Source of the DNA: a virus
Reading direction: 5' to 3' (one strand)
IMG/VR virus record: IMGVR_UViG_3300006793_000296
Span: 1 to 23,124 of that record
Length of the DNA stretch: 23,124 nt
Positions 1,529 to 19,731 of this stretch are shown here, in pieces. The notes under the pieces are model-generated. The model was not told the origin of the DNA. It saw nothing but the letters and a program-made list of their open reading frames with translations, and ran no database searches. The stretch's first letter is position 1, and each line of letters begins with the position of its first letter. Made by a program: the position numbers and the translations under genes.

Positions 1529-2905
1529 ATGTCTAACAATAACATATTACCACAATTTAGAGTAGTTGAAGCTATTATTACATCTGATATTTCTGATGTA
1601 TCTATTGTTGTTACTAATGACCTACTTGAATTAAACCTTTATGAGTCCTTAGACCAACTATACCTTACAGGCGATGCTACCTTTTTAGATAAACATGGAT
1701 TTTATTCTACTATACAATTTCAAGGAACTGAGAGAATAAATTTAACTATTCAATCAGGCGACTCTGAACATACAACAAGAGTTTTAAAGAAAACTTTTAT
1801 AATAGACTCTGTAATAAATAGAATCAAAACAACTAATGGCATGTCAAGTACTTATGTTTTTCATCTTATTGATGAGATAGGTTTTCTTTCTCGAATAAAA
1901 AAAATAAGTAAGTCTTTTTCAGGAAGTCTTGAAACTATAACCAAAAAAATAGTACAAGGGGAACTGAAAAGAAAGGTTGATATTTCTTACTCCGGAGCAA
2001 CATCAGGTAATCAAGAACTAAGTGTTCAGGGAAACAGAACTTGTATTATTCCTAACATGACTATACTAGAGGCCATACAGTGGTTGTCTCAGAGAATTAC
2101 TACTAAAAACGGTTCTCCTTATTTTGTTTACTCTACTTTAAAACTTGATGATGAAGTGACGATTGAAAATGATGTAGAGGTAGATTCATCTCTTATAAGG
2201 ATTGGTAACTTGGATACAATGTTATCAAGAAAAGCTTTTAATAAAACACCATTTATCTATAACCCAAACGCTAAATCTCAAAACGATGAGTTAGCATTTG
2301 ATAAAATGTTTGTGATAAAGTCTTTAAAATTTGGTAGTTCATCTAATACTTTGAGGCTGTTAGAAATTGGTTCTCACTCAAGTGATTATTCAAATACAGA
2401 CTTAAATACTGGAGAAATACAAAAAACCAAATATAGTTTAAAGCAGCAACTTAAAAAACTTTCAGATGAGTCTATAATAAACTCTAATCAAAACGTTCAC
2501 AATTCAAAGTTTATGCTTAAAGACGAGTTCATTGATACTTACTCATCTAAAAAATATCATACCATAACTTCTTCAGGAACACAAGGAAATATAAAGGGTT
2601 ATAACGAGTCTGGAGAAGGGGATGGTTTGAAAAATAGAATTTCTACCTTCGCTATAAAAAATGCTTTATATAAAAATAGTATAGAGATTGTTGTTGAAGG
2701 TATTGGCGTTTTTATATCAGGAACACAGGTTGGCGATATTATAAACGTACTTATAATAGGCGATACAGATGAAGATTTTAGTCCAGATAATTTTAAAGAC
2801 TCTAAGTATACAGGAGATTATTTAATATGGGAATTAAAACACAAATTTAGAAATAACGAACATAGTGTCTTTATGACCTTGTGTAAATTAGAGGCAGAAG
2901 AATAA
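1529..2905 (+). CDS. Baseplate hub protein, gp27-like
   Basis: A 458-residue protein that looks like the central baseplate hub subunit (T4 gp27, 391 residues; related to Mu gp44 and VgrG hub domains). Residues about 32-76 have the pattern of the first tube-like hub domain: LELNLYESLDQLYLTGDATF, then an FQGTERINLTI strand. Residues about 169-201 contain NRTCIIPNMTILEAIQWLSQ followed by GSPYFVY, a pattern typical of hub proteins. The C-terminus (VEGIGVFISGTQVGDIINVL, then GDYLIWELKHKF) resembles the last hub beta domain. It starts immediately after gp53 and its TAA overlaps the ATG of the OB-fold gene, its expected physical partner. The family call comes from sequence pattern and context, so the gp27 name is an inference. 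Confidence 0.7.
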   Translation: MSNNNILPQFRVVEAIITSDISDVSIVVTNDLLELNLYESLDQLYLTGDATFLDKHGFYSTIQFQGTERINLTIQSGDSEHTTRVLKKTFIIDSVINRIKTTNGMSSTYVFHLIDEIGFLSRIKKISKSFSGSLETITKKIVQGELKRKVDISYSGATSGNQELSVQGNRTCIIPNMTILEAIQWLSQRITTKNGSPYFVYSTLKLDDEVTIENDVEVDSSLIRIGNLDTMLSRKAFNKTPFIYNPNAKSQNDELAFDKMFVIKSLKFGSSSNTLRLLEIGSHSSDYSNTDLNTGEIQKTKYSLKQQLKKLSDESIINSNQNVHNSKFMLKDEFIDTYSSKKYHTITSSGTQGNIKGYNESGEGDGLKNRISTFAIKNALYKNSIEIVVEGIGVFISGTQVGDIINVLIIGDTDEDFSPDNFKDSKYTGDYLIWELKHKFRNNEHSVFMTLCKLEAEE

Positions 2906-3753
2906 TGGACGTTATTAAATCTATTCCTTCAGAATACTATGGTGATAGCACTCGTTGGTTTATTGCTACTGTTGTAAACTCAACTCCTCCAGCAGGATAT
3001 GAGGGGCGAGTAAAGATACGTATACACGGATTACATAGTGAATCTACTATTGATATTCCGGAAGAACATTTACCTTGGGCGCAATGCCTCCTTCCTACAA
3101 CAGAGGGTGGGGTTTCGGGCATAGGAAAAATACCGCGCGTGCTACCAAGCGCATTAGTATTCGGAATGTTTATGGACGGAAATCACTCACAGACACCTAT
3201 AGTACTGGGTTCACTTCCTAAGATAGAAAGACCTTCACAGATACAAATACAAAATAGACAGCGTTATACAACAGCAAAAGATAGTATTATTGCGAGCGCT
3301 ATTAATATTGCGGATACATTTACTGAAACTCCTGACGAAGCACTTTTAAAAAATAGAGCAGAATATTCTTTACAATTTTTTCTAAACATAGGATATAGCT
3401 ATTCTCAATCTATAGGAATAACAGATAATCTTTTTCAAAATGGTATGTATTCAGGTTTTGAAGGAAGTGAAGAACAAGGTACAGTTAATTTTGGTGTTGG
3501 AAAGTGGTCAGGAGAAAGGTTTAAAGATATAAAAAGTTTTTCACCAGCAGGTTATACAACCTTTTCAACTCAACTTGAGTTCATAGCATTTGAATTAAAT
3601 GGAAAACAAAGGTCTGCTAATATTCGTTTATTACAAAGTGAAAAGGTTAAAGGAGAAAAAGGTTCTCTTTATATATTCTCTAAATACTATTTGAAAAGAA
3701 CAGAAGAAGAACTTAAAAATTTAGATTTAGTTGGGAGATATCAAAATGGATAA
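2905..3753 (+). CDS. gp5: gp5-type OB-fold hub protein with degenerate tail-lysozyme-like domain
   Basis: Residues about 15-105 match the N-terminal OB-fold of T4 gp5, which binds the gp27 hub: RWFIATVVNSTPPAGYEGRV, then HLPWAQCLLPTTEGGVSGIG and LVFGMFMDGNHSQTPIVLGS. Residues about 150-245 resemble the phage tail lysozyme family (PF18013 type): a helix YSLQFFLNIGYSYSQSIGI, a DNLFQNG motif, then FGVGKWSGERFKDI and QLEFIAFELNG. In active members the motif usually reads GNLQAESG with a catalytic Glu; here the aligned residue is Asn179, so lysozyme activity is probably lost. There is no beta-helix at the C-terminus, unlike T4 gp5 (575 residues); that domain is in the gene at 6425. The start overlaps the upstream TAA (TAATG). 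The OB call is strong and the lysozyme-like call moderate. Confidence 0.8.
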   Translation: MDVIKSIPSEYYGDSTRWFIATVVNSTPPAGYEGRVKIRIHGLHSESTIDIPEEHLPWAQCLLPTTEGGVSGIGKIPRVLPSALVFGMFMDGNHSQTPIVLGSLPKIERPSQIQIQNRQRYTTAKDSIIASAINIADTFTETPDEALLKNRAEYSLQFFLNIGYSYSQSIGITDNLFQNGMYSGFEGSEEQGTVNFGVGKWSGERFKDIKSFSPAGYTTFSTQLEFIAFELNGKQRSANIRLLQSEKVKGEKGSLYIFSKYYLKRTEEELKNLDLVGRYQNG

Positions 3754-3771: not shown

Positions 3772-6396
3772 ATGGCTTTGGGAAGTTTCTTCAATAAAAA
3801 ATTATTTGACAAGTTAAATGCTGCAACAGAAGAGCAAAGAAGATTAAATAATCTAAAGGCTCCTATTATAAAAACTTCAAGAGAAGTGACAGGTGACGAG
3901 GTCACAAATTTAATTGTTGGTAATGAAGACATAAATGTTGTAACAGAAGAATATAATGAATCTCCAGAAAATGCTACTCCGTTACAAACATCATTTGAAC
4001 AATTACGAGACCAATACATGGCACAAAACGTTAGTAGTATGGGTAAGAAAGTTGGGAATGGTTTAAAGGGCGTTGCATTATCTATAAATGAAGACCCAAC
4101 AGGAAACGGGATATGTGAACTAGTCGCTCTTGGCGGAACTACTGGAACAGGAAAACAACCAAAAAGTTTAGTCGTTTGTGGCGGTAGTGTTTTAGCAATA
4201 GAAACTTCTAGGAAAGCATATATAGAAAAATGTAATGCTCGTATAGGAGAAATAGCTACAATCGCTGATTCTATTCCAGCAGTATTAGGTACACCTTCCG
4301 GAGGGTTTCTAGGACTTGTGTTAAAGGTTGTTAGCGTACTTGGCGTTGCTGGTAGACTTGGAGCAGAGACTGGGCCACTAGCAAAATTTACAAAAGCTAT
4401 TAATGAATTTGTAGATGATATCGGTGATGCTACAGGTATTGATAAATTTTCTGAATGGATTAAAAAAGGCCCAATCGGAAAAACTCTAAAGTTTTTTGAA
4501 GACCTTCCTGGAAGAGCAGCTGGTGTTGTAGGAGACATTTTTGACGACGTTTTTGATTTTATAAAGTTTGATGAGATTTTTCCAGAGTTTAAAACTGTTA
4601 TCCTCCCTAACATAAACGCTCCAGAAGGTGTAGTAGGTTCAACTATTGAGCAAGTAACAAAAAACAAAACATTAGCTGGTGAGTTTAAGGCGTCTTTAAA
4701 AGGTTACATACAAGATGTAGCTAGTGGTATGGCTTCTGATATTAACCACACTTTCAGAGGTCTTATCTCTCAGGAAAATATAGGTGCTTATACCGTTCAA
4801 ATGATAAATGGTGATGTTGAGGGTGCTGCGAAAAACCTTCTTCAAGATAATGTTCCTGTTGCTATTACTGCTTATGCTGTCTTAGGAGATAAGTTAAAAG
4901 AAGCAGAAACTATAGAGGATATGATCAAAGGCATAGCAGAATCAGAAGCTTCTGCTGCGGATAAAGAAAAGGCGCAAAACGAAATTGATAATGTTATAAA
5001 AGAAATGACATTGATATCTGATTTCCATAATAACTTAGAAAGTGTTATTGCGTCAAACGTATTAGGTGATACTGAAGCGACATACATACAAGACTTATCA
5101 GTTCCCTTTACTTTTGTTTCATCGGTAGAAGAACTTGAACTTGAAATGTCAGGTAGACTTGCTCCAAAAGGTTCACGACCTGTCAGTAAAATCGTTATTC
5201 ATGCTACAGAAAGTTTTACTAATTCAAACTTTGGAGCAGAAGAAATAAATGATATACACAATAAGTTAGGTGATGAAGGAATACAATATCATTATGTTAT
5301 AAGACGTGATGGTAGACTACAAAGGGGTCTTAGTATAGAAGAGTCTGGTAAACATACAGGAGATGAAGGTATTGATAAAAATTCTATTGGTATTGTTATG
5401 GTTGGTGGTATAGATTCCCCGACAACAGAACAGCCATTTCAAACATCAAGTAGTTCATTTACTCGCGTTCAATACAATACATTAGAACAATTCCTTACAG
5501 TATATTATCATAATTTTCCAGGAGGAAGTGTTTATGGGCATAATGATTTAGATAATTCAGAACTTGACCCATACTTTGATGTTCAAGACTATATATTATC
5601 CTTATTTGGAAAAGTAAATACAGATATTCTTGTTGATATTGATGACACTGAATCCGAAGATTTCGAAGATTTAAACCCACCAGCAGAAAATGGAGAAGTT
5701 GTTGAAGAAGATGTAGATGCTGAAATAGCAGAAGATGATACCGAAGCGGTAGAAAAAGAAGAGGGTAAGGTTAATGATAGTATTAAAGTCACGAGTAAAA
5801 AAGTTCTTGACGATATTAAGAAAAAATCAGTAATATATAAGGAAAGTGAAAAATACAAAGTTTATTATAGACCTCAACAAAGTAAAGATAATAAACCCGT
5901 CGACTGGAACGAATTTAAAGCAGGTTCTAATATCGCTGAAGATATACAGTATTTTGCGAATACAATCTCAGAAAACTTGTTTGTTAATTCTGGATATCGT
6001 GACCCACATCAAAATGTTAGAGCTAAAGGTGCGCCAAGAAGATTATTGTCAGAAAATGAATCGGTTACAGTAGCGCGTGAAAAAAGTTTAACAGAAGATA
6101 GAGGGCCAGAATCAAATACTCCAGGATTAAGTAATGGTAGTCCGCACATGTATGGCCTTGCTGTTGATGTTGGAATAAGAGGTTTTGAAAACAATAGAGA
6201 CAAGGTTGCTCAATTAGTAAAACTCGCCAAGCAAAGGGGGTTCACGCAAATTGGTATTAGTTCTACATTTATTCATATGGATAAGAAAGACCCTGACAGA
6301 GGATTTTTCTATAAAGACTACCCAAGTAAAAATAAATCTACGCCAGAGCATAAAATGATGGTGAAATTAAACATGAATATATCTACTAAATATTAA
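3772..6396 (+). CDS. Virion-associated peptidoglycan hydrolase: N-acetylmuramoyl-L-alanine amidase plus M15-type peptidase
   Basis: An 874-residue multidomain protein. Residues about 468-612 are an Amidase_2/T7-lysozyme-like domain: KIVIHATES, QYHYVIRRDGRL, NSIGIVMVGGID, VYGHNDLD and ELDPYFD. The predicted zinc ligands are His477, His590 and Asp599, with Tyr506 at the position of the T7 lysozyme Tyr46. An acidic Asp/Glu-rich linker (about 615-667) follows. Residues about 718-850 form a peptidase M15_3-type domain: VNSGYRDPHQN, the exact HxxGxAxD motif (His792, Asp799), and FIHMD with His835. Such domains cut the stem peptide or cross-bridge. Residues 1-450 are unrecognised and Ala/Gly-rich, with a hydrophobic stretch at about 168-195. 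Its place between the gp5 OB and gp5 beta-helix genes suggests that it rides on the tail spike and opens the wall during DNA entry, rather than acting as a lysis endolysin. Domains are clear; the location is inferred. Confidence 0.85.
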   Translation: MALGSFFNKKLFDKLNAATEEQRRLNNLKAPIIKTSREVTGDEVTNLIVGNEDINVVTEEYNESPENATPLQTSFEQLRDQYMAQNVSSMGKKVGNGLKGVALSINEDPTGNGICELVALGGTTGTGKQPKSLVVCGGSVLAIETSRKAYIEKCNARIGEIATIADSIPAVLGTPSGGFLGLVLKVVSVLGVAGRLGAETGPLAKFTKAINEFVDDIGDATGIDKFSEWIKKGPIGKTLKFFEDLPGRAAGVVGDIFDDVFDFIKFDEIFPEFKTVILPNINAPEGVVGSTIEQVTKNKTLAGEFKASLKGYIQDVASGMASDINHTFRGLISQENIGAYTVQMINGDVEGAAKNLLQDNVPVAITAYAVLGDKLKEAETIEDMIKGIAESEASAADKEKAQNEIDNVIKEMTLISDFHNNLESVIASNVLGDTEATYIQDLSVPFTFVSSVEELELEMSGRLAPKGSRPVSKIVIHATESFTNSNFGAEEINDIHNKLGDEGIQYHYVIRRDGRLQRGLSIEESGKHTGDEGIDKNSIGIVMVGGIDSPTTEQPFQTSSSSFTRVQYNTLEQFLTVYYHNFPGGSVYGHNDLDNSELDPYFDVQDYILSLFGKVNTDILVDIDDTESEDFEDLNPPAENGEVVEEDVDAEIAEDDTEAVEKEEGKVNDSIKVTSKKVLDDIKKKSVIYKESEKYKVYYRPQQSKDNKPVDWNEFKAGSNIAEDIQYFANTISENLFVNSGYRDPHQNVRAKGAPRRLLSENESVTVAREKSLTEDRGPESNTPGLSNGSPHMYGLAVDVGIRGFENNRDKVAQLVKLAKQRGFTQIGISSTFIHMDKKDPDRGFFYKDYPSKNKSTPEHKMMVKLNMNISTKY

Positions 6397-6424: not shown

Positions 6425-8098
6425 ATGACTACAAAAAAAGATAACCATAAGGCAAGAGTTGATAAACTGGGTTTAGGTATAGAGCTTACTGTTGGTGTTC
6501 CTACAGACGGAATGCAATCTCCTACAGGAGAATACCCTAAAAGAGAATATAACTTTGGTTCTTCAGTTAACAAAGCAGCGCTTGGTACTAAAGTAAACAA
6601 ACTTTATACAGGTGGTGGTGAAATTGGTGTACCATTAGGTATACCAGAACAAATGCCTTCTCAGTATCCGTTCAATCAAGTAGACGAAACACCTAGTGGG
6701 CATGTTATTGAGATGGACGACACTCCGGGTGGCGAAAGAGTCCTTATTAAACATCGTAAAGGGTCGGGTGTAGAATTACGTGCTGATGGTACGGTTGTAA
6801 TATCCGCGTTAAATAATAAGGTTGAAGTAACAGGAGGAGACCAAACCGTGATCATTGAAGGTCATGGTAATCTTGTATACAACGGAAATCTTAATCTTAA
6901 AGTAAGTGGTGACTATAACGTAGAAGTTGGAGGTAACTATAATGTTAAAACAGGAGGTAACGCAACTAAAAATATAAAAGGTAACTCTGTTGATACTGTT
7001 GTGGGAACTAAAAAAGAAAGTGTACACGGGACGAATACAATCATAACAAGAGGAAATAAAGTTGATGTTAACTTATCAAACCTAAGAGTTTCTACTAAAC
7101 AATCAACTAGAATTGCTTCTCAGGGTAGTTTACAAGTAGGTTCTGGAAGCAATATGTTTCTACACTCAGATAATAAGTTTGATATTTCTTCTAAAAATAT
7201 AATCGCTAATGCGCCAGAAGCTTTGGTATTAAAAGGTACACGCGGAGTGATTGGGGGGCAAGAAATGAGATTTACGGGACGAACATATTCTGGCGCTCGT
7301 AAATCAAAAAGTAAACCAGAACTTAAATATTCTGCAGGTCAAAGTCAATTCTATACGTTTGATAGTGACGGTGTAATCAATAACGTTACTGTAGGTGATA
7401 GTGATAACTATTTAAATATTCAAGGGTCAACCAGCGATGATTTTGAGACCGCAATATTTCATGGAGACCTTTACGGTATTGCGCAGAAAGCTCAAATGGC
7501 AGATAACGCAAATAAATCTATTACGGCATTTCATTCAAGTTTTGTAGCTTCACCAATTCCTATTGGCAAACCAGGAAATATGAGTGTTTTAAAAATAAAA
7601 GATTTAGTTTCAAATTTCAATATGGAAGCAGAAGCAGGTCATGATCCAGTAGAGACTAGTGAGATATTTAATGTAGCATTAGGTCTCCTTAGTGATTCAG
7701 ATATGAACACTTATGTTAAATTAGGTAAACCTATAGTAGAAGTTCTTATGGACGAAGGAGATTTTATAAGAGATGATATGAAAGGTAAAGAATTTTATGA
7801 AGGTGTTTTTGAAAGAGAACCAACTCCTGCTGAAGTTAGGTCGGCATTTAGAAATCCGAGTACAAGATTTGAGAGCAGAGGTTTAGGTGATGGAACAGTA
7901 GGCATTAAACCTTCTAAACTCGCAAAACTTCTTGCTGTTCAGAAAAGGAATCCTTTAATAAACCCTAACGCATTAATACATCCTCCTATCCCACCAAAAC
8001 TTACAGGAAGAGTTGTTAATAAAGAAACTTCTTCAAAATATGGTTTTACTCCTATAGGAAATTCAATAGATAATAGAGGAAAAAGATTTAGAAAATGA
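6425..8098 (+). CDS. Tail spike/needle protein with gp5C-type beta-helix
   Basis: A 557-residue protein whose central part (about 86-275) matches the C-terminal triple-stranded beta-helix of T4 gp5 and VgrG. It has a GHVIEMDDTPGGERVLIKHR entry strand, then GSGVELRADGTVVIS, then many short repeats (GNLVYNGNLNLKVSGDYNVE, VGGNYNVKTGGNATKNIKGN). This forms the membrane-piercing needle below the hub. The N-terminal 85 residues are Gly/Pro-rich and may dock to the OB protein. After the helix, a region with FHGDLYGIAQKAQMADNANK (about 345-365) and a C-terminal part of about 170 residues are not in T4 gp5 and I do not recognise them. A short AGAGAA (6415-6420) precedes the start. The stop overlaps the next ATG (ATGA). 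The beta-helix call is strong. Confidence 0.85.
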   Translation: MTTKKDNHKARVDKLGLGIELTVGVPTDGMQSPTGEYPKREYNFGSSVNKAALGTKVNKLYTGGGEIGVPLGIPEQMPSQYPFNQVDETPSGHVIEMDDTPGGERVLIKHRKGSGVELRADGTVVISALNNKVEVTGGDQTVIIEGHGNLVYNGNLNLKVSGDYNVEVGGNYNVKTGGNATKNIKGNSVDTVVGTKKESVHGTNTIITRGNKVDVNLSNLRVSTKQSTRIASQGSLQVGSGSNMFLHSDNKFDISSKNIIANAPEALVLKGTRGVIGGQEMRFTGRTYSGARKSKSKPELKYSAGQSQFYTFDSDGVINNVTVGDSDNYLNIQGSTSDDFETAIFHGDLYGIAQKAQMADNANKSITAFHSSFVASPIPIGKPGNMSVLKIKDLVSNFNMEAEAGHDPVETSEIFNVALGLLSDSDMNTYVKLGKPIVEVLMDEGDFIRDDMKGKEFYEGVFEREPTPAEVRSAFRNPSTRFESRGLGDGTVGIKPSKLAKLLAVQKRNPLINPNALIHPPIPPKLTGRVVNKETSSKYGFTPIGNSIDNRGKRFRK

Positions 8099-8682
8099 TA
8101 GTACAACCCGAATTACAATATAACCCAGACTTACAGTCTTACATTTCTTCGAGAACTAAACTTGGTCGTGGAATAACTATGGCAAAGTTTTTGGGTTCAT
8201 ATTCTGATAAAACTGACCTTAGTCATATGCCAACACAAGACTTAAGAAGAAAGCTCGCAAGAAACCTTACACTACACGCTAATGCCTTATCCGTAATAAA
8301 CAATAACACTCAAAGATTTAATGACGTTCGCGTTATTGTAAGCGAAGGTGTCTATAAGAAACAAGCGGTAGATGCAGAAAGCGAAATTATGACTCAAAAG
8401 GCAATCGGTAGACTTGTGTATTATCAAGTCATAGGAACAAACGGAGAAATTGATTTTGAAAAAACGTTTGATGTTGCTGTGTTTTGGAAAGACCATATAG
8501 AATACGATGAAATAAAATTAGATTATGATAACTATAATCCAGATGGAAGTTTTAGCGCGCAGATTGGATTATTGATGCCTTTTTTGACTGAGGAATATGA
8601 AGCAAATTTCAGAAAAGAGGTAAACACTTATTTTAATAATGACTTAATGGCAGATAATGCATTTACAGAATTTACAGGATAA
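8095..8682 (+). CDS. Unrecognised baseplate-cluster protein
   Basis: A 195-residue protein I do not recognise. Its start overlaps the stop of the spike gene (ATGA), so it is probably translated by coupling and made with the spike. It has no evident signal peptide or membrane segment. It has a basic, helical N-terminal half (DLRRKLARNLTLHANALSVI at about 49-68) and a charged, Asp/Tyr-rich segment (FWKDHIEYDEIKLDYDNYNP at about 130-149). By position between the gp5-type genes and gp25 it may be a hub, wedge or assembly factor. It is the last gene before a late promoter, so it probably ends one transcriptional block. The gene is well supported; its function is unknown. Confidence 0.75.
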   Translation: MIVQPELQYNPDLQSYISSRTKLGRGITMAKFLGSYSDKTDLSHMPTQDLRRKLARNLTLHANALSVINNNTQRFNDVRVIVSEGVYKKQAVDAESEIMTQKAIGRLVYYQVIGTNGEIDFEKTFDVAVFWKDHIEYDEIKLDYDNYNPDGSFSAQIGLLMPFLTEEYEANFRKEVNTYFNNDLMADNAFTEFTG

Positions 8683-8728: not shown

Positions 8729-9178
8729 ATGACAAGAAGAGCATTCGCACAAGAAGACGCAGATTTAGGAACCAACTCAGTTCCTATATCAAGAAAGCGT
8801 GATTATAAAGATATAGATTTGACGCTTGCGGTTAAACCCACGAGCGGAGACTTCTATTCTAAAACGAATGCTGCAGCAGTAAAACAATCGATTAAAAATT
8901 TACTTATGACTAACAGACTTGAAAAACCTTTTCGTCCAGAATTTGGAGCTGATATAAGAAGGTTCTTATTTGAGTTAATGAGTGATACGTCAGATTTTTA
9001 TATAAAAAGGCATCTCGCATCAGCAATTCGTAGGAGTGAACCGAGAGCTAGAATAATGAATATAGAAGTTTATAATTTAGAAAATTATAAAAATACTGTA
9101 GACGTTACTGTTACTTTCAAAATTATAAACTCTCCTCAAGTATTTCAAGTTACTACAAATCTAGCAAGGTTAAGATAA
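8729..9178 (+). CDS. gp25: Baseplate wedge subunit gp25 (gp25/TssE-like)
   Basis: A 149-residue gp25-like wedge protein (T4 gp25 is 132), related to the type VI secretion TssE sheath-nucleating subunit. It initiates sheath assembly and contacts gp6. Diagnostic segments are DYKDIDLTLAVKP, SIKNLLMTNRLEKPFRPEFG (about 54-73), the LFELMSD helix and SEPRARI with the conserved Glu-Pro-Arg (104-106). The start is fixed because no other ATG, GTG or TTG lies upstream in frame before the TAA at 8699; the next Met is residue 60, too late for the fold. No ribosome binding site precedes the ATG. The TAA is followed at once by the gp6 ATG. Confidence 0.95.
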   Translation: MTRRAFAQEDADLGTNSVPISRKRDYKDIDLTLAVKPTSGDFYSKTNAAAVKQSIKNLLMTNRLEKPFRPEFGADIRRFLFELMSDTSDFYIKRHLASAIRRSEPRARIMNIEVYNLENYKNTVDVTVTFKIINSPQVFQVTTNLARLR

Positions 9179-11005
9179 ATGACGACAGCAATAACATCAA
9201 CCGCATTAGATTTTAATTCTATAAAGAATAATCTAAAAACCTCCTTAGAAAACTCTGGGAAGTTTACGGACTTTAATTTTGAAGCATCTGGTATATCAAG
9301 TATATTAGATGTTCTGGCTTATAATACACACTTTAATGCTCTTACCGCAAACTTTGCGTTAAATGAATCATTCCTTAGCACTGCTCAACTTAGAAGTTCA
9401 ATCGTATCTCTCGCGGAAGGTATTGGTTATATTCCTAATTCAAGAACTGCGTCACAAGCTATTGTAAACCTTTCTATAAATTTAAGTGGTGTTTCAGGAA
9501 GACCTTCAACTATTAGAATAAACGAAAACTTTAAATTTAATACGTCAATTGATGAAACAGACTATGTATTTCAAACGAGGGAAACTTTAGTAGCAACAGA
9601 TACAGAAAATAGCGGAATTTATATTTTTAAAGATTTATCTGGAAGTAAAGATATAAAAATATCAGAAGGAACACTTAGAAGTAAGCGGTTCATAACACTA
9701 GAATCAAAAGATAATCCTGTATATGTTATACCAGATAAAACATTAGACCTTTCAACAGTAGTTGTAAAAGTTTTTGAAAATACTTCTACTTCAACTTTTA
9801 CTACATATTCAAACATTATTAACGCAACAGTTATTAATGAAAACTCCACGCTTTATATACTGAAAGAAGCTCCGAACGGTTTATTCGAATTATCTTTCGG
9901 TAATGGTGTTACTCTAGGAAAAGCTCCTATTTTAGGTGGAAGGATTGAAGTTGAGTATCTTAGTGTTGCTGGTGTACTAGCAAATAATGCCAAGACCTTT
10001 TCCTCACAAAATTCTGTTACAGTTAATGGCGTAAATTATCCTGTAACTGTTTCTACTGAAATAGTATCTGTTGGAGGAGACACGAGAGAGACTATAGAAA
10101 GTATTCGTAAGAATGCACCTTTCCAATATGCTTCACAGAACAGAATGGTTACTGCATCAGATTACTCTGCATTGATACTCAAGAACTATTCATCGTTCAT
10201 ATCAGACATACAATCCTTTGGGGGAGAAGATGCGCTTGAACCAGAATATGGTGTGGTCTTTGTATCAATATTATTTGATACAGACGATATACCTACTCAA
10301 ACAAGAATAAAAAATGAGATACTACAACTATCTGAACAATTATCTGTAGCGTCGTTTGATGTTAAGTTTCAAGACCCTATAAAAACATTTATAGAAACAA
10401 CAACGTTTTTTCAGTTTAGTGAAAACCTAACAACACTATCAAGAAATACAATTCAAAGTAACGTCAATCAAGTCATAGATGATTACTTTGCAGGAATAAC
10501 AGGTAAGTTTGGTCAATCGTTCAGAAAATCAAACCTACTTACATTAATTGATAATTCAAGTTCAGCTGTCCTTTCTTCACGTCAAGAAATAAAAATGCAA
10601 AGAAGGTTCACACCTACTCTTACAGCTATACAAAATCATAAGATAAGGTATGCAGCTCCTATTGCTGATAATGATGACTTGATTTATACAATTACGTCTA
10701 GTCCATTTAGCTTCAGAGGTAATCCTTGTATAATAAGGAATAGACTGAATACAAACAAATTAGAAATATTTGATACGGTTCAAAAGATTGTAATTGTTGA
10801 TAACTCCGGAGATTATTCTAATGATGTAGTAAATATTGTTGGACTTCAAGTTGATGCGTTTATAGGTTCAGATAACTTTATTAAGTTAAGTGTAACTCCC
10901 GCTAATCAAAGCGCTATATCTCCCCTCAGACAAGATATTATTGAGTATGATAGCTCTAAATCATTTACTTCAATAGTTGATGTTGCTTCTGGGGTTACTA
11001 ACTAA
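9179..11005 (+). CDS. gp6: Baseplate wedge subunit gp6 (baseplate J-like)
   Basis: A 608-residue gp6/baseplate_J family protein (T4 gp6 is 660), which makes the inner ring linking the wedges. The N-terminus has the family signature LDFNSIKNNLKTSLENSGKF, then ILDVLAYNTHFNALTANFAL and LAEGIGYIPNS. The central part (LFELSFGNGVTLGKAPILGG, IRKNAPFQYASQNRMVTASD at about 310-330) is the most conserved J-type segment. It follows gp25 without a gap, the same pairing as in most contractile systems (gp25-gp6), and its TAA overlaps the next ATG. Confidence 0.95.
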   Translation: MTTAITSTALDFNSIKNNLKTSLENSGKFTDFNFEASGISSILDVLAYNTHFNALTANFALNESFLSTAQLRSSIVSLAEGIGYIPNSRTASQAIVNLSINLSGVSGRPSTIRINENFKFNTSIDETDYVFQTRETLVATDTENSGIYIFKDLSGSKDIKISEGTLRSKRFITLESKDNPVYVIPDKTLDLSTVVVKVFENTSTSTFTTYSNIINATVINENSTLYILKEAPNGLFELSFGNGVTLGKAPILGGRIEVEYLSVAGVLANNAKTFSSQNSVTVNGVNYPVTVSTEIVSVGGDTRETIESIRKNAPFQYASQNRMVTASDYSALILKNYSSFISDIQSFGGEDALEPEYGVVFVSILFDTDDIPTQTRIKNEILQLSEQLSVASFDVKFQDPIKTFIETTTFFQFSENLTTLSRNTIQSNVNQVIDDYFAGITGKFGQSFRKSNLLTLIDNSSSAVLSSRQEIKMQRRFTPTLTAIQNHKIRYAAPIADNDDLIYTITSSPFSFRGNPCIIRNRLNTNKLEIFDTVQKIVIVDNSGDYSNDVVNIVGLQVDAFIGSDNFIKLSVTPANQSAISPLRQDIIEYDSSKSFTSIVDVASGVTN

Positions 11006-14442: not shown

Positions 14443-17400
14443 ATGCCAACCACGTTTACTTCAAATGTCTTTTCGTCAACATACAAAGACGATTTTAAAG
14501 ATAGTGATAACTATCATCGCATTCTTTTCAATAGTGGTCGCGCGTTACAAGCACGCGAACTTACTCAGATGCAAACAATTATCCAAGAGGAGATTGCAAG
14601 GTTTGGTCGTAATATATTTAAAGATGGTGCTGCCGTAAATCCTGGTGGACCAAGTATTAATAACGATTATAGATTTGTTAAACTTTCAGATGAAAGCGTA
14701 TTACCTACAGACCCTACAACTCTGGTTGGTACAGAATTTACAGGTGCTGCTTCAACAGTTAAGGCAAGAGTATTAGAAGTTGTTGCTGCTACCGATACAG
14801 ACCCAGCAACACTTTATGTTCAGTATACAAATACTTCAGGTGGTTCGGTAGGAACAACAGCTGTAAGATTTAATACAGGCGAAAGTATAAGTAATGGTAG
14901 TACAACCCTTCAAGTACAAACAATTAATAACGCAACAAACCCTTCTACAGGAGTAGGTTCTAAAATACATAATGATGGAGGAGATTTCTTTGTAAGAGGT
15001 CACTTCGTTTTCGTTAATCCTCAAGGTTTAATACTTTCTAAGTATACAAATAATGCTACTAAAATTGTTGGTTTTAAAATAACAGAAGATATTGTTACTA
15101 CTGCTGACGATACTGCGTTATTTGATAATCAGGGAGTTACTCCGAATGTAACTTCTCCAGGAGCAGATAGATATCGCATCAAACTAACTCTTACAACACA
15201 AGACCAAATAGCTGCAGACGAAAATTTCGTTTTCTATTGTCACGTCGTAAATGGAGAAATAGTTGATCAAGCATCAGGTACAGATGATTACAATAAAATA
15301 ACCGACCTTCTTGCCGAAAGAACTAAAGAAGAGTCAGGTAATTATATCGCAAAGAAATTTAATGCTTCATTATCAGATAGTGGGGAAAATATATTAGTTA
15401 ATATTTCAAGCGGCATAGCATATGTAAACGGATATCGTGCGACTAATGATAGACCAATTTCATTAGTAGTCCCGAAACCACAAACAACTCTTACTCTTCA
15501 AAATAATACAGTTGGTTTAACTTATGGTTCATATTTTATATGCTCTTCGTTAAAAGGTAAATTAAATATAGCAACCTTTGAAACAGTTAACTTATCTACA
15601 TCTACATCTGACCCAAGTGGTAATTCTATAGGTACTGCTAAAGTAAGATATGTAGAAAAAGATGGAAGCAATTTCAAAGTATATCTATTTGATATCAAAA
15701 TGAGCAGTGGACAATCATTAAGGAATGTTAAAACAATCGGATTAAATACTAGCAATTTCGCTGTTATTTTACAAGAAGGCAGTCCAGCAAAATCAATACT
15801 AAAAGAAACTAATAAAGTAAATCTTGTATATCCGACAAACAATCCTCGTCCAAGAATATTAACAGACGCGAGTTTTGAAGTTCAAAGGATTATTACAGGT
15901 ACTCCATCTGGAGGAGCGCTTACTATTGGTTTAACTACTAGCGGCGAGACTTTTGTTAATACAGGTCAGATTTTAATAACACGCGTTGATACTGGAGTTG
16001 TGGTAACTCCGACAAGTATTACAGGAACAGGAACTGCTAACTTAACCTTTGCGGGATTACCGAATACAGCTCTAACACTATATGTAAAGGTAAACAAAGG
16101 AACACCTCAACCTAGACAAAAGTCTCTTAGTTCAGTAATAACTAAAACAGCTTCAATTACAACAGATGGTGACGCTTCTTTCATAGATTTACATGCGACA
16201 GACTTACATGATGTAATTGCAATAAAACAAACAGATTCAGATGGTATAGATTTAAGTTCTAGGTTCACTATTGATAATGGGCAAAGAGCAAGTCATTACG
16301 CAAACGCAAGACTTATTGTTAATGATGGAACTACTGCTCCTTCCGGAGATGTTTTCGTTAAGTTTAGACACTTTACACATGGTACTGGAGATTTCTTCTC
16401 AGTTAATTCATACGGAACAGCGTCTACGGTTGCTTATGAAAATATACCAGACTTTAAACCAAATAATAGAACTTCTATTAATCTACGTGATGTTATAGAC
16501 TTCCGTTCTTCGGTTGACTCAGATGGTTTATTCGTAGGTTCAGGAGTAGCAATAAATGAACTACCAACGAATGGTGACGCTTTCCAAGCTGATATAGAAT
16601 ACTATCTACCAAGAGCAGATAAAGTGTTTATAACAACACAAGGTGAAGTTAAATTGGTTCAGGGCGAGCCAGGATTTAATACTCAAATTCCTTCTGCTCC
16701 AGAAAATTCTTTAGAGTTATTTAATTTAAATCATAATGGATATGGATTAAATTCTAAAGATACTTCTGTAACTCCAATAGAATCAAAACGATTTACTATG
16801 AGAGATATATCTAATTTAGAAAAGAGAATAGATAAACTTGAAGAAGTTACGTCATTATCTTTATTAGAAGTTGATACCTCATCTATACTTGTATTAGATT
16901 CTGCGGGTAATCCACGTAGTAAGTCAGGTTTCTTTGTAGATAACTTTAAAAACAGAGCATTTATTGATGGACAAAATCCAAATAATCGTTCTGCGATTGA
17001 CCCGTCACTAGGAGTATTATTACCTCAACAATATGATAATAATATTTCTTTGGTGTATGATTCAGATAAATCTACAAACACTATATTAAAAGGCGATACT
17101 GTTTATATAAAATATAGTGAAGACTCAGCTATATCTCAGAAAAGAGTTTCGGGTTCAGAAAACGTAAATCCATTCGCAGTACTTACAGGAATAGGTAATA
17201 TTACAATGTCTCCTGCCTCTGATGAGTGGCAAGACACAGTATTCCTTCCAGAAAATGTTATTGAAGAAACAGCGATAGATGATTTAGGCGACCTTAACGA
17301 TGGTGGCAGAGTTTATCCAATGAGAAGTTCTACTCAAAACTTTCTCCCAATAGTAGGGTATGGCCCATATGTACAAAATCTATTTAATGGATTTAACGGA

Positions 17401-19731
17401 ACAAGAACTTGGAACTGGAACGGAAGTCCTATAACACCTCCACCAACTATTAGAAATGGTGGCGGTTTCCTTGGTAGTATTGGTAATGTTGCTATGCAAA
17501 CATCCAGAAGAGCGCAAGACTTTTCTTTACCTTTCTCTCCTCGTATTGTTATAAGCACTCAAACAATCCGTGAAGTTACAGGGGATAGACAAGTATCCTT
17601 GACATTCTTACCCTTTATTCGTTCAAGAAAAGTATTCTTCAAGGCAGAAGGTTTAAGACCGAATACAAGATACTTCCCATTCTTTGATAATACACAAGTA
17701 AATGCTTTTGTAAGACAACATGAGACTGAGCCGTTCATAAGAATGTCTGCTCTTACTGCTGAAGCAAGAAAGTTAATTGATGGAGTTGATCATAAATTAA
17801 ATAGAGACAAAACATCACACCCGAATGGGTCAACAAATTTAGTTTCAGATGTTGACGGTAAAATAGAAGGTTCATTCTTTATTCCTTGTAACCCTGTTCC
17901 AAGAGATGAAAATGGAGACCCACTTCCTGTTGATACAAACAAGGATGTTGGTGTTAGATTCCGTGCTGGTACTCGTGAGTTTAAACTTCTTGATATTAGT
18001 CAAAACGATGATTCCCTTGCTACAAGTTCAGCAAGATTTAATTATATCGCGCAAGGAACTCTAGAAACTCGTCAACAGACTGTGACATCAACTCGTACAA
18101 CTATAATTAGACCAATGATAAGGACTAGGACACAACCAGCCACGCATAGAGACCCTCTTGCTCAGTCTTTCCGTGTCCCAACAGGTTCAGGTATGTACGT
18201 TACTAAGATAGATTGTTTCTTTAAAACTAAAGATGATTCAATTGCTGTTGCCTTAGAAATTAGACCTATGATAAATGGACATCCTTCTTCAACAGATATT
18301 ATTTCTAATGCTGTTAAGTTTGTTTCAGCTTCTGCGGTAGCATTACCAGCAGGACAGACTTCAGCTGAAGTACTTGCTGCGCCAACAACCTTTGAGTTTG
18401 ATGAACCTATCTTCTTGAATCCAGATACAGAATATGCTATGGTTCTTCTTGCTGAGTCAACTAACTACGAAGCATATGTTGCAGAAACATATGAGTTTGA
18501 GTTGGGTTCAACAGAAAAACGTATTAATAGACAACCTGCTATGGGGTCATTATTTAAGTCTCAGAATGGTTCTACATGGGAACCAGACCAAACGAAAGAC
18601 TTAATGTTTGTGATTCATCAAGCAATATTTGATACTGCTGGCGGTAATGCTGTATTCGAAAACGGTGATGCGCCAAAAGAATTATTAATACCTAATGCTT
18701 TATATTCCGATTCAGGAAGCAATACAATAACTATGTATAATCCAAACCACGGATATATTAAAGGTGATGCTCCAGCTAATATATCTGAATCAATAAATAT
18801 ATCAGGTCTTGATTCTGATACAGTATATAACGGAATATTAGGGTCATCTATAATGGGCAGTAGAGTTATTACTGTATCAGATGGATTTGGACTTAAATTT
18901 AATGCTGATAGTGCCGCGACATCTTCGGGTAGATTTGGTGGTTCCACTATGGTTACTAATAGACAAATACCGTTTGATGGTTGCGTTCCAAATTTCACAA
19001 CAATAATACCAGATGACACTAATATAGTTTGTAGTGTTAAATTTATGTCAGGCGTGTCTTTCGCAGGTTCTGAAGCTCCATATACAAAATCTAGTTCTTT
19101 TAGTTCTGATATTGTAATAGGAGAAGAAAACTATTTTGATTCTCCAAAATTAATTGCTAATGAAGCCAAAGAAACCTCAGAACTTGGGGCTGGAGAGCGT
19201 TCGACAACGTTTAATATTAAATTGTCGACAACTAACTCAAACGTATCGCCAATCATAGATGGCCAAAGGTCTTCATTGACCACTATAAGTAATCTTATCG
19301 ATAGACAAATATCAGGTTCAACAGCAGCATCAGGATTTAATATTCCGTTGAATTATGTTCCAGAAACTAAGTCCTCCGGAGGTTCTTCTCTTGCGAAACA
19401 TATATCTTCAGTTCAAGTACTTGAAGATACTTCTGTTGGTTTAAAAGTTATTTTATCGGCATTAAGACCGAAGGGTGCTGACTTTGAATTATATTGGAGA
19501 ACTGCACAGGATGGTGAAAATATTCTTGATATAGATTGGACATTAGAGCCAAGAGAACAGGTTATTCCTACAGATGATAAAAACTTCCGTGAGTATAGAT
19601 ATCTGATAGGTGGTCAAGGTGGAGACATTGAAGAGTTTACTCAATATCAATATAAAATTGTTATGACAAGTACTAACTCATGTGCTCCTCCTGTATTTAA
19701 AGACTTTAGGTCAATAGCAATGGCAGTATAA
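14443..19731 (+). CDS. Giant virion structural protein, DUF4815 type
   Basis: At 1762 residues this is the largest protein here. Residues about 24-65 (NYHRILFNSGRALQARELTQ, then MQTIIQEEIARFGRNIFKDG) are the start of a DUF4815 domain, known from large baseplate or appendage proteins of marine T4-like phages. A short coiled coil follows at about 786-809 (ISNLEKRIDKLEE). A region from about 1236 (RDPLAQSFRVPTGSGMYVTK) to about 1390 looks like a beta-sandwich carbohydrate-binding-like or jelly-roll domain. The C-terminus (GADFELYWRT, FREYRYLIGGQGG, then YKIVMTSTNS) is also typical of this family. It sits between gp8 and the fibre gene, so an outer-baseplate role or fibre support, taking over from T4 gp7/gp10-12 parts, is my inference. 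Its TAA overlaps the next ATG. Confidence 0.82.
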   Translation: MPTTFTSNVFSSTYKDDFKDSDNYHRILFNSGRALQARELTQMQTIIQEEIARFGRNIFKDGAAVNPGGPSINNDYRFVKLSDESVLPTDPTTLVGTEFTGAASTVKARVLEVVAATDTDPATLYVQYTNTSGGSVGTTAVRFNTGESISNGSTTLQVQTINNATNPSTGVGSKIHNDGGDFFVRGHFVFVNPQGLILSKYTNNATKIVGFKITEDIVTTADDTALFDNQGVTPNVTSPGADRYRIKLTLTTQDQIAADENFVFYCHVVNGEIVDQASGTDDYNKITDLLAERTKEESGNYIAKKFNASLSDSGENILVNISSGIAYVNGYRATNDRPISLVVPKPQTTLTLQNNTVGLTYGSYFICSSLKGKLNIATFETVNLSTSTSDPSGNSIGTAKVRYVEKDGSNFKVYLFDIKMSSGQSLRNVKTIGLNTSNFAVILQEGSPAKSILKETNKVNLVYPTNNPRPRILTDASFEVQRIITGTPSGGALTIGLTTSGETFVNTGQILITRVDTGVVVTPTSITGTGTANLTFAGLPNTALTLYVKVNKGTPQPRQKSLSSVITKTASITTDGDASFIDLHATDLHDVIAIKQTDSDGIDLSSRFTIDNGQRASHYANARLIVNDGTTAPSGDVFVKFRHFTHGTGDFFSVNSYGTASTVAYENIPDFKPNNRTSINLRDVIDFRSSVDSDGLFVGSGVAINELPTNGDAFQADIEYYLPRADKVFITTQGEVKLVQGEPGFNTQIPSAPENSLELFNLNHNGYGLNSKDTSVTPIESKRFTMRDISNLEKRIDKLEEVTSLSLLEVDTSSILVLDSAGNPRSKSGFFVDNFKNRAFIDGQNPNNRSAIDPSLGVLLPQQYDNNISLVYDSDKSTNTILKGDTVYIKYSEDSAISQKRVSGSENVNPFAVLTGIGNITMSPASDEWQDTVFLPENVIEETAIDDLGDLNDGGRVYPMRSSTQNFLPIVGYGPYVQNLFNGFNGTRTWNWNGSPITPPPTIRNGGGFLGSIGNVAMQTSRRAQDFSLPFSPRIVISTQTIREVTGDRQVSLTFLPFIRSRKVFFKAEGLRPNTRYFPFFDNTQVNAFVRQHETEPFIRMSALTAEARKLIDGVDHKLNRDKTSHPNGSTNLVSDVDGKIEGSFFIPCNPVPRDENGDPLPVDTNKDVGVRFRAGTREFKLLDISQNDDSLATSSARFNYIAQGTLETRQQTVTSTRTTIIRPMIRTRTQPATHRDPLAQSFRVPTGSGMYVTKIDCFFKTKDDSIAVALEIRPMINGHPSSTDIISNAVKFVSASAVALPAGQTSAEVLAAPTTFEFDEPIFLNPDTEYAMVLLAESTNYEAYVAETYEFELGSTEKRINRQPAMGSLFKSQNGSTWEPDQTKDLMFVIHQAIFDTAGGNAVFENGDAPKELLIPNALYSDSGSNTITMYNPNHGYIKGDAPANISESINISGLDSDTVYNGILGSSIMGSRVITVSDGFGLKFNADSAATSSGRFGGSTMVTNRQIPFDGCVPNFTTIIPDDTNIVCSVKFMSGVSFAGSEAPYTKSSSFSSDIVIGEENYFDSPKLIANEAKETSELGAGERSTTFNIKLSTTNSNVSPIIDGQRSSLTTISNLIDRQISGSTAASGFNIPLNYVPETKSSGGSSLAKHISSVQVLEDTSVGLKVILSALRPKGADFELYWRTAQDGENILDIDWTLEPREQVIPTDDKNFREYRYLIGGQGGDIEEFTQYQYKIVMTSTNSCAPPVFKDFRSIAMAV

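Follow-up and report, generated by a model that had tools for sequence, protein, structure and literature searches.

An 874-residue open reading frame (ORF; 3772..6396, + strand, ATG start) of a T4-like marine phage probably encodes a spike-associated peptidoglycan hydrolase that is carried in the virion and acts in trans, beside what is best read as a dead spike lysozyme. The ORF lies in the window, by which we mean the whole stretch of DNA analysed, the 23,124-base IMG/VR virus record IMGVR_UViG_3300006793_000296, which holds an uninterrupted T4-like baseplate operon; the source phage is known from metagenomes only, and the record is a fragment. Megablast returned no named close relatives of the window, and the nearest relatives of its gp6 are those of the phages C48C1, Methylophilales Melnitz and Pelagibacter Mosig and of cyanophages. 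From the evidence laid out below we infer virion incorporation, N-terminal docking, catalysis and the exact bond specificity of the 874-residue protein.

Gene order around the hydrolase ORF

The operon opens with a gp48-type cap (1-792), gp53 (794-1528) and a gp27-like hub protein of 458 residues (1529..2905, +; phrog_350 tail protein, E=7e-32), followed by a gp5-OB protein of 282 residues (2905..3753, +; PF06714, E=6e-7; phrog_430 at residues 15-110). On the other side of the 874-residue ORF lies the gp5 C-terminal beta-helix (needle) protein of 557 residues (6425..8098, +; phrog_430 at residues 332-505, E=7e-31; Gp5_trimer_C, E=3e-4), and then come an ORF of 195 residues to which no function is assigned (8095..8682, +), adjoining the needle gene on its 3' side, gp25 (8729-9178) and gp6 (9179-11005), with wedge and fibre genes after them. 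The original prediction had placed the ORF between gp5-OB and beta-helix genes, and the profile matches confirm both flanks.

Scanning IMG/VR with the 874-residue ORF, the OB protein and alignments of each as queries gave >200 relatives of the amidase and 166 of the OB protein, from which the best 80 of each were kept. Among the matches kept, the order gp27-like, OB, amidase ORF and helix has no exception in 71 distinct contigs, as far as their genes are visible, so the co-occurrence with gp5-OB and beta-helix genes that the original prediction proposed as a check extends to the relatives. The gp27-like gene precedes the OB gene on its 5' side in all 68 contigs with a visible upstream gene, and the needle gene follows the amidase ORF either directly or, in 12 contigs, with one PP-loop-like gene inserted. 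The window and all relatives seen encode OB, hydrolase and beta-helix on three ORFs of their own, in contrast to the single-chain gp5 of T4. Moreover, the amidase ORF sits among tail and baseplate structural genes and outside a lysis cassette throughout the 71 contigs, as a virion-associated hydrolase would.

An amidase domain with an altered active site

The T7 lysozyme-like Amidase_2 domain (5107..5619, +) is matched by PF01510 at residues 468-600 (E=7.5e-14, 52.6 bits against a cut-off of 26), and its fold resembles T7 lysozyme (TM by target 0.78 for 1aro_L and 0.71 for 1lba). The zinc ligands H477, H590 and D599, which had been predicted at exactly these positions, are invariant in 49/49 non-redundant relatives, the third ligand being Asp, not Cys. 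Y506 occupies the position of T7 Y46 and is kept as Y or F across the family, and H507 is kept too. When the window is compared with its 92%-identical relative L002, the amidase domain has the lowest dN/dS of all regions, 0.046. A chance or artefactual ORF is ruled out by the profile E value, the invariant ligands, the fixed synteny and purifying selection.

At the position of the catalytic Lys128 of T7 lysozyme, the window has E597 (5560-5562), and 45 of the 49 relatives have Glu there, which is neither the Lys of phage enzymes nor the Thr found in PGRPs (PMC4573324). Together with the Asp-for-Cys third ligand, E597 forms a conserved altered amidase site; the free-standing phage amidase relatives that were aligned are mostly Lys-x-Cys. 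Because a K128T change in T7 lysozyme is reported to cut activity considerably (PMC4573324) and the equivalent position here is a conserved Glu, the activity of the amidase, judged by its sequence, is likely but not assured. The same substitution could suggest that the spike protein carries an amidase domain that binds the wall but no longer cuts it, a PGRP-like anchor, with cutting left to the M15 domain, in those proteins that have one, or to mechanical puncture. Such an anchor would suit the relatives with an amidase only, which are the majority, and a neighbouring lysozyme domain that is itself already dead. However, the family keeps all three zinc ligands, Y506 (as Y or F) and H507, and the amidase is under strong purifying selection, whereas non-catalytic PGRPs have typically lost one zinc ligand, and we therefore regard an anchor as unlikely and a cutting amidase as the better reading.

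A predicted lysozyme fold without the catalytic Glu in the OB protein

The OB protein has, at about residues 146-270 (+ strand), a degenerate phi29-gp13-type lysozyme domain (PF18013, Phage_lysozyme2, E=9e-5), a match that is below the curated cut-off in the window and above it in some relatives; 21 of 42 OB relatives match Phage_lysozyme2 at E<=0.001 (best 3.5e-7). Its AlphaFold model reaches pLDDT 90+ and has a fold resembling phi29 gp13 (3csr, TM by target 0.62). Profile and fold thus both point to a phi29-gp13-type lysozyme, but the catalytic Glu is missing. Its approximate site is 3439..3447 (+), about Q178-N179-G180 of the OB protein, with a gap or N in the alignment. None of 45 relatives has Glu in the column of phi29 gp13 E45, which instead holds S (12), a gap (11), A (9), V (7), T (3) or others (3); gp5 of Ochrobactrum phage vB_OspM_OC (phage OC) has Glu there. 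A Ser just after this column is kept in 33/45 relatives. One relative has an interrupted OB-lysozyme gene (L081:4474-5449), which reads as an OB ORF (170 residues) and a lysozyme-domain ORF (118 residues).

The OB protein is best read as having a lysozyme fold devoid of its catalytic residue, in other words a dead spike lysozyme. It was originally proposed that the 874-residue protein replaces a lost lysozyme. The loss stands for the catalytic Glu but not for the fold, which the OB protein retains, and the proposal therefore becomes a hydrolase beside a lysozyme fold without a catalytic residue. Could this domain still be active through another catalytic residue, making the amidase/M15 protein an addition and not a replacement? 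Its fold is well predicted and it is under selection (dN/dS 0.12), but not one of the 45 relatives has an acidic residue at the catalytic column, nearly all having S, A, V, T or a gap, and we consider an active OB lysozyme very improbable.

A peptidase domain confined to one clade

Downstream of the amidase, the Peptidase_M15_3 domain (5842..6393, +) is matched by PF08291 at residues 785-837 with E=7.6e-5 and 23.2 bits, which is exactly the cut-off. Despite this score the domain is real, since the M15 domains of relatives reach E values as low as 2.7e-12 (47.2 bits in L016). Its ligands H792, D799 and H835 form an HxxxxxxD...HxD motif at the positions first proposed, and they are kept in the M15-bearing relatives with a complete C terminus. 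The dN/dS of the domain is 0.10 between the window and L002.

M15 is present in 13 of the 56 tree rows, all on one side of a branch with support 100/100. Being confined to one clade, it was gained or lost once, either acquired by that clade or dropped by the remainder of the family; the constant element is the amidase. Thus, of the bifunctional protein put forward in the original prediction, the two metallo-hydrolase domains are recognised by Pfam, but the pair is not family-wide, and a two-bond mechanism cannot be general since most relatives do not have M15.

The M15 domain of the window might have arisen by fusion of a copy of the endolysin of its phage. This origin is not favoured because a profile of the window M15 scores the M15 of phage OC gp5, the closest among those tested, at 60.7 bits and free endolysins at 34-39 bits.

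Is the hydrolase an endolysin?

The principal alternative to a virion protein is that the 874-residue ORF encodes an endolysin, or a dual-use enzyme, that lies within a late structural operon by chance. The PHROG families matched by both domains carry the label 'lysis', T7 lysozyme-type amidases are usually endolysins, and no other amidase is found in related records: among ten of them (up to 149 kb), the spike-operon amidase is the sole Amidase_2 found, except in one that ends just after the OB gene and shows none. These ten records are fragments or unclosed, and the comparison covered relatives, the window itself being a fragment.

Against an endolysin, five of the ten related records encode a free M15_3 protein of 154 residues that matches phrog_894 over nearly its whole length (E 6e-46). 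Its gene is tens of kb from the tail operon, and one of the five records also has an M15-bearing spike ORF. The amidase ORF is therefore not the sole wall hydrolase of these phages, nor is it part of a lysis cassette, and the separate endolysin-type protein indicates that the 874-residue ORF is probably not the endolysin. In addition, the amidase ORFs are 580-1089 residues long with a long N-terminal region, compared with 150-200 residues for Gram-negative endolysins, and they always lie within the hub/spike gene run. The ten related records yielded neither a GH24 lysozyme nor an M23 peptidase, although the absence of other hydrolases counts for little because of their fragmentary or unclosed state. 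Taken with the lack of a second Amidase_2, these results side with the tail-carried enzyme of the original prediction, and an endolysin or dual-use role seems rather unlikely.

Proposed mechanism

We propose that the spike device built in T4 from one gp5 chain (OB, lysozyme and needle) is here split over three genes. The product of the first, the OB protein, would plug onto the gp27-like hub and carry the Glu-less lysozyme-fold domain. The second would supply a separate enzyme made of an N-terminal docking region, the amidase and, in the clade of the window, the M15 peptidase, and the third the beta-helix needle that forms the tip. The amidase/M15 protein would ride in the spike through its 445-residue N terminus, docked on the OB-lysozyme or the needle protein. 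Upon sheath contraction, the spike would be driven into the periplasm and the wall hydrolysed locally; the amidase would sever MurNAc from L-Ala, M15 would break a peptide bond of the stem or cross-link, and these cuts would open a hole for the tail tube.

The N-terminal region proposed as the docking or structural part (3772..5106, +; 445 residues) is mostly helical and fast-evolving, with dN/dS of 0.27 between the window and L002; the linker has 0.29. It has no phage homologue at E<=1, no fold was recognised for it, and its model has low pLDDT. Weak matches to the tape-measure family phrog_1272 are seen in 2 of 38 relatives.

Comparison with known spike and secretion systems

T4 gp5 consists of OB, lysozyme and beta-helix, with a maturation cleavage between lysozyme and needle, and its lysozymes act in the periplasm once the needle has come off (PMC3004832). 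Because gp5 is cut after the lysozyme domain (PMC3004832), T4 too ends up with a needle on a chain of its own. The window resembles T4 (gp27-gp5*-gp5C)3 in the order OB, hydrolase and needle beside a gp27-like hub and in a spike-carried hydrolase, the latter predicted here. It differs from T4 gp5 in using three genes, in having an amidase with or without M15 rather than GH24, and in an OB chain whose phi29-type lysozyme domain is non-catalytic.

Split gp5 has been reported in Agrobacterium phage Atu_ph04, Sinorhizobium phage phiM9 and Rhizobium phage P10VF (PMC6630229) and is also visible in Methylophilales phage Melnitz and phage C48C1. These phages, like the window, have OB and needle on separate genes, but the window differs from them by the amidase gene between the halves; in C48C1, for example, the gp5 halves are separated merely by a 77-residue ORF and no amidase gene. 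Wall hydrolase domains also occur within spike proteins. Melnitz has a VanY/M15-like domain within its OB protein, and OLIVR5 has a CHAP domain in a gp5-type protein. Phage OC gp5 (808 residues) runs through OB, M15_3, Phage_lysozyme2 and needle, but it is a single chain that keeps the lysozyme Glu and has no amidase. Two genes after this M15-bearing gp5 lies another ORF of phage OC with weak similarity to M15 (L045:9022-9606). Similarly, gp5 of Vibrio phage VP-1 (1016 residues, AWY10192) has a T7-like Amidase_2 in a gp5/baseplate hub protein, but in this ackermannvirus the amidase is fused to OB and helix, its active site is Lys-x-Cys, and there is no M15. The phi29 gp13 protein (PDB 3csq/3csr), a tail-carried two-domain wall hydrolase, shares the lysozyme fold of the OB C-terminal domain and differs in having Glu45 and belonging to a podovirus tail knob. 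Its lysozyme is paired with an M23-type domain.

In the type VI secretion system (T6SS), VgrG17 carries Tae17, a bifunctional hydrolase loaded by way of its N terminus (PMC11796386). The 874-residue protein would be similar in being a bifunctional wall hydrolase with an amidase, non-covalently loaded by its N terminus on a gp27-gp5-like spike, a mode of loading suggested here by analogy. Tae17, in contrast, is an antibacterial secretion effector that combines an amidase with a transglycosylase, and the likeness drawn here is one of arrangement. By the same logic, we tentatively raise a two-part delivery in which the dead OB lysozyme would serve as a docking adaptor for an exchangeable hydrolase cargo, loaded N-terminally as on a T6SS VgrG, and the Glu would mark an altered amidase chemistry; we hold this to be possible, though doubtful.

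In the literature (open-licence PMC full text), no phage was found in which the gp5 halves flank a free gene for an amidase or amidase-M15 protein next to a dead lysozyme. Thus, split gp5 and an M15 or amidase fused inside gp5 are already known, and what appears new against this literature is a free amidase gene between the halves, beside a lysozyme that we read as dead. If our reading holds, the spike of a large uncultured marine T4-like lineage has lost its built-in lysozyme activity yet keeps the dead fold, with the cutting performed in trans by a metallo-amidase able to gain or lose a peptidase. Phage spikes would then share a cargo principle with the VgrG effectors of the T6SS, and the lineage would offer a testable example of an enzyme turned into a scaffold, as well as a candidate enzyme for cutting two bonds in Gram-negative walls. 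It may also help account for the wide divergence of gp5 reported among pelagic myophages (PMC7029224).

Other features of the operon

The 195-residue ORF (8095-8682) directly follows the needle gene, on its 3' side, in almost every relative and is possibly a spike-tip or chaperone protein. In one subclade, the amidase ORF and needle gene are separated by an ORF of 233-235 residues resembling PP-loop ATPases/QueC (L021:7589-8290, L028:9824-10528 and L078:4804-5512), with an SGGADTALLL motif and a Cys-rich C terminus, a metabolic-type gene that is odd among spike genes; L079 belongs to this subclade but does not have it. The possibility that the 233-residue ORF is a split-off M15 gene was ruled out by its resemblance to PP-loop ATPases and its Cys-rich tail, and it matches no Pfam or PHROG family. 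The gp27-like gene of L006 appears as two ORFs of 236 and 220 residues (L006:5578-7013), compared with one of 477 residues in its close relative L007, probably through a frameshift or sequencing error. Finally, the wedge/fibre region of the window encodes a 1762-residue protein (14443-19731) with matches to DUF4815 and phrog_358, possibly a VrlC-like double-layer baseplate protein of the kind described for marine myophages.
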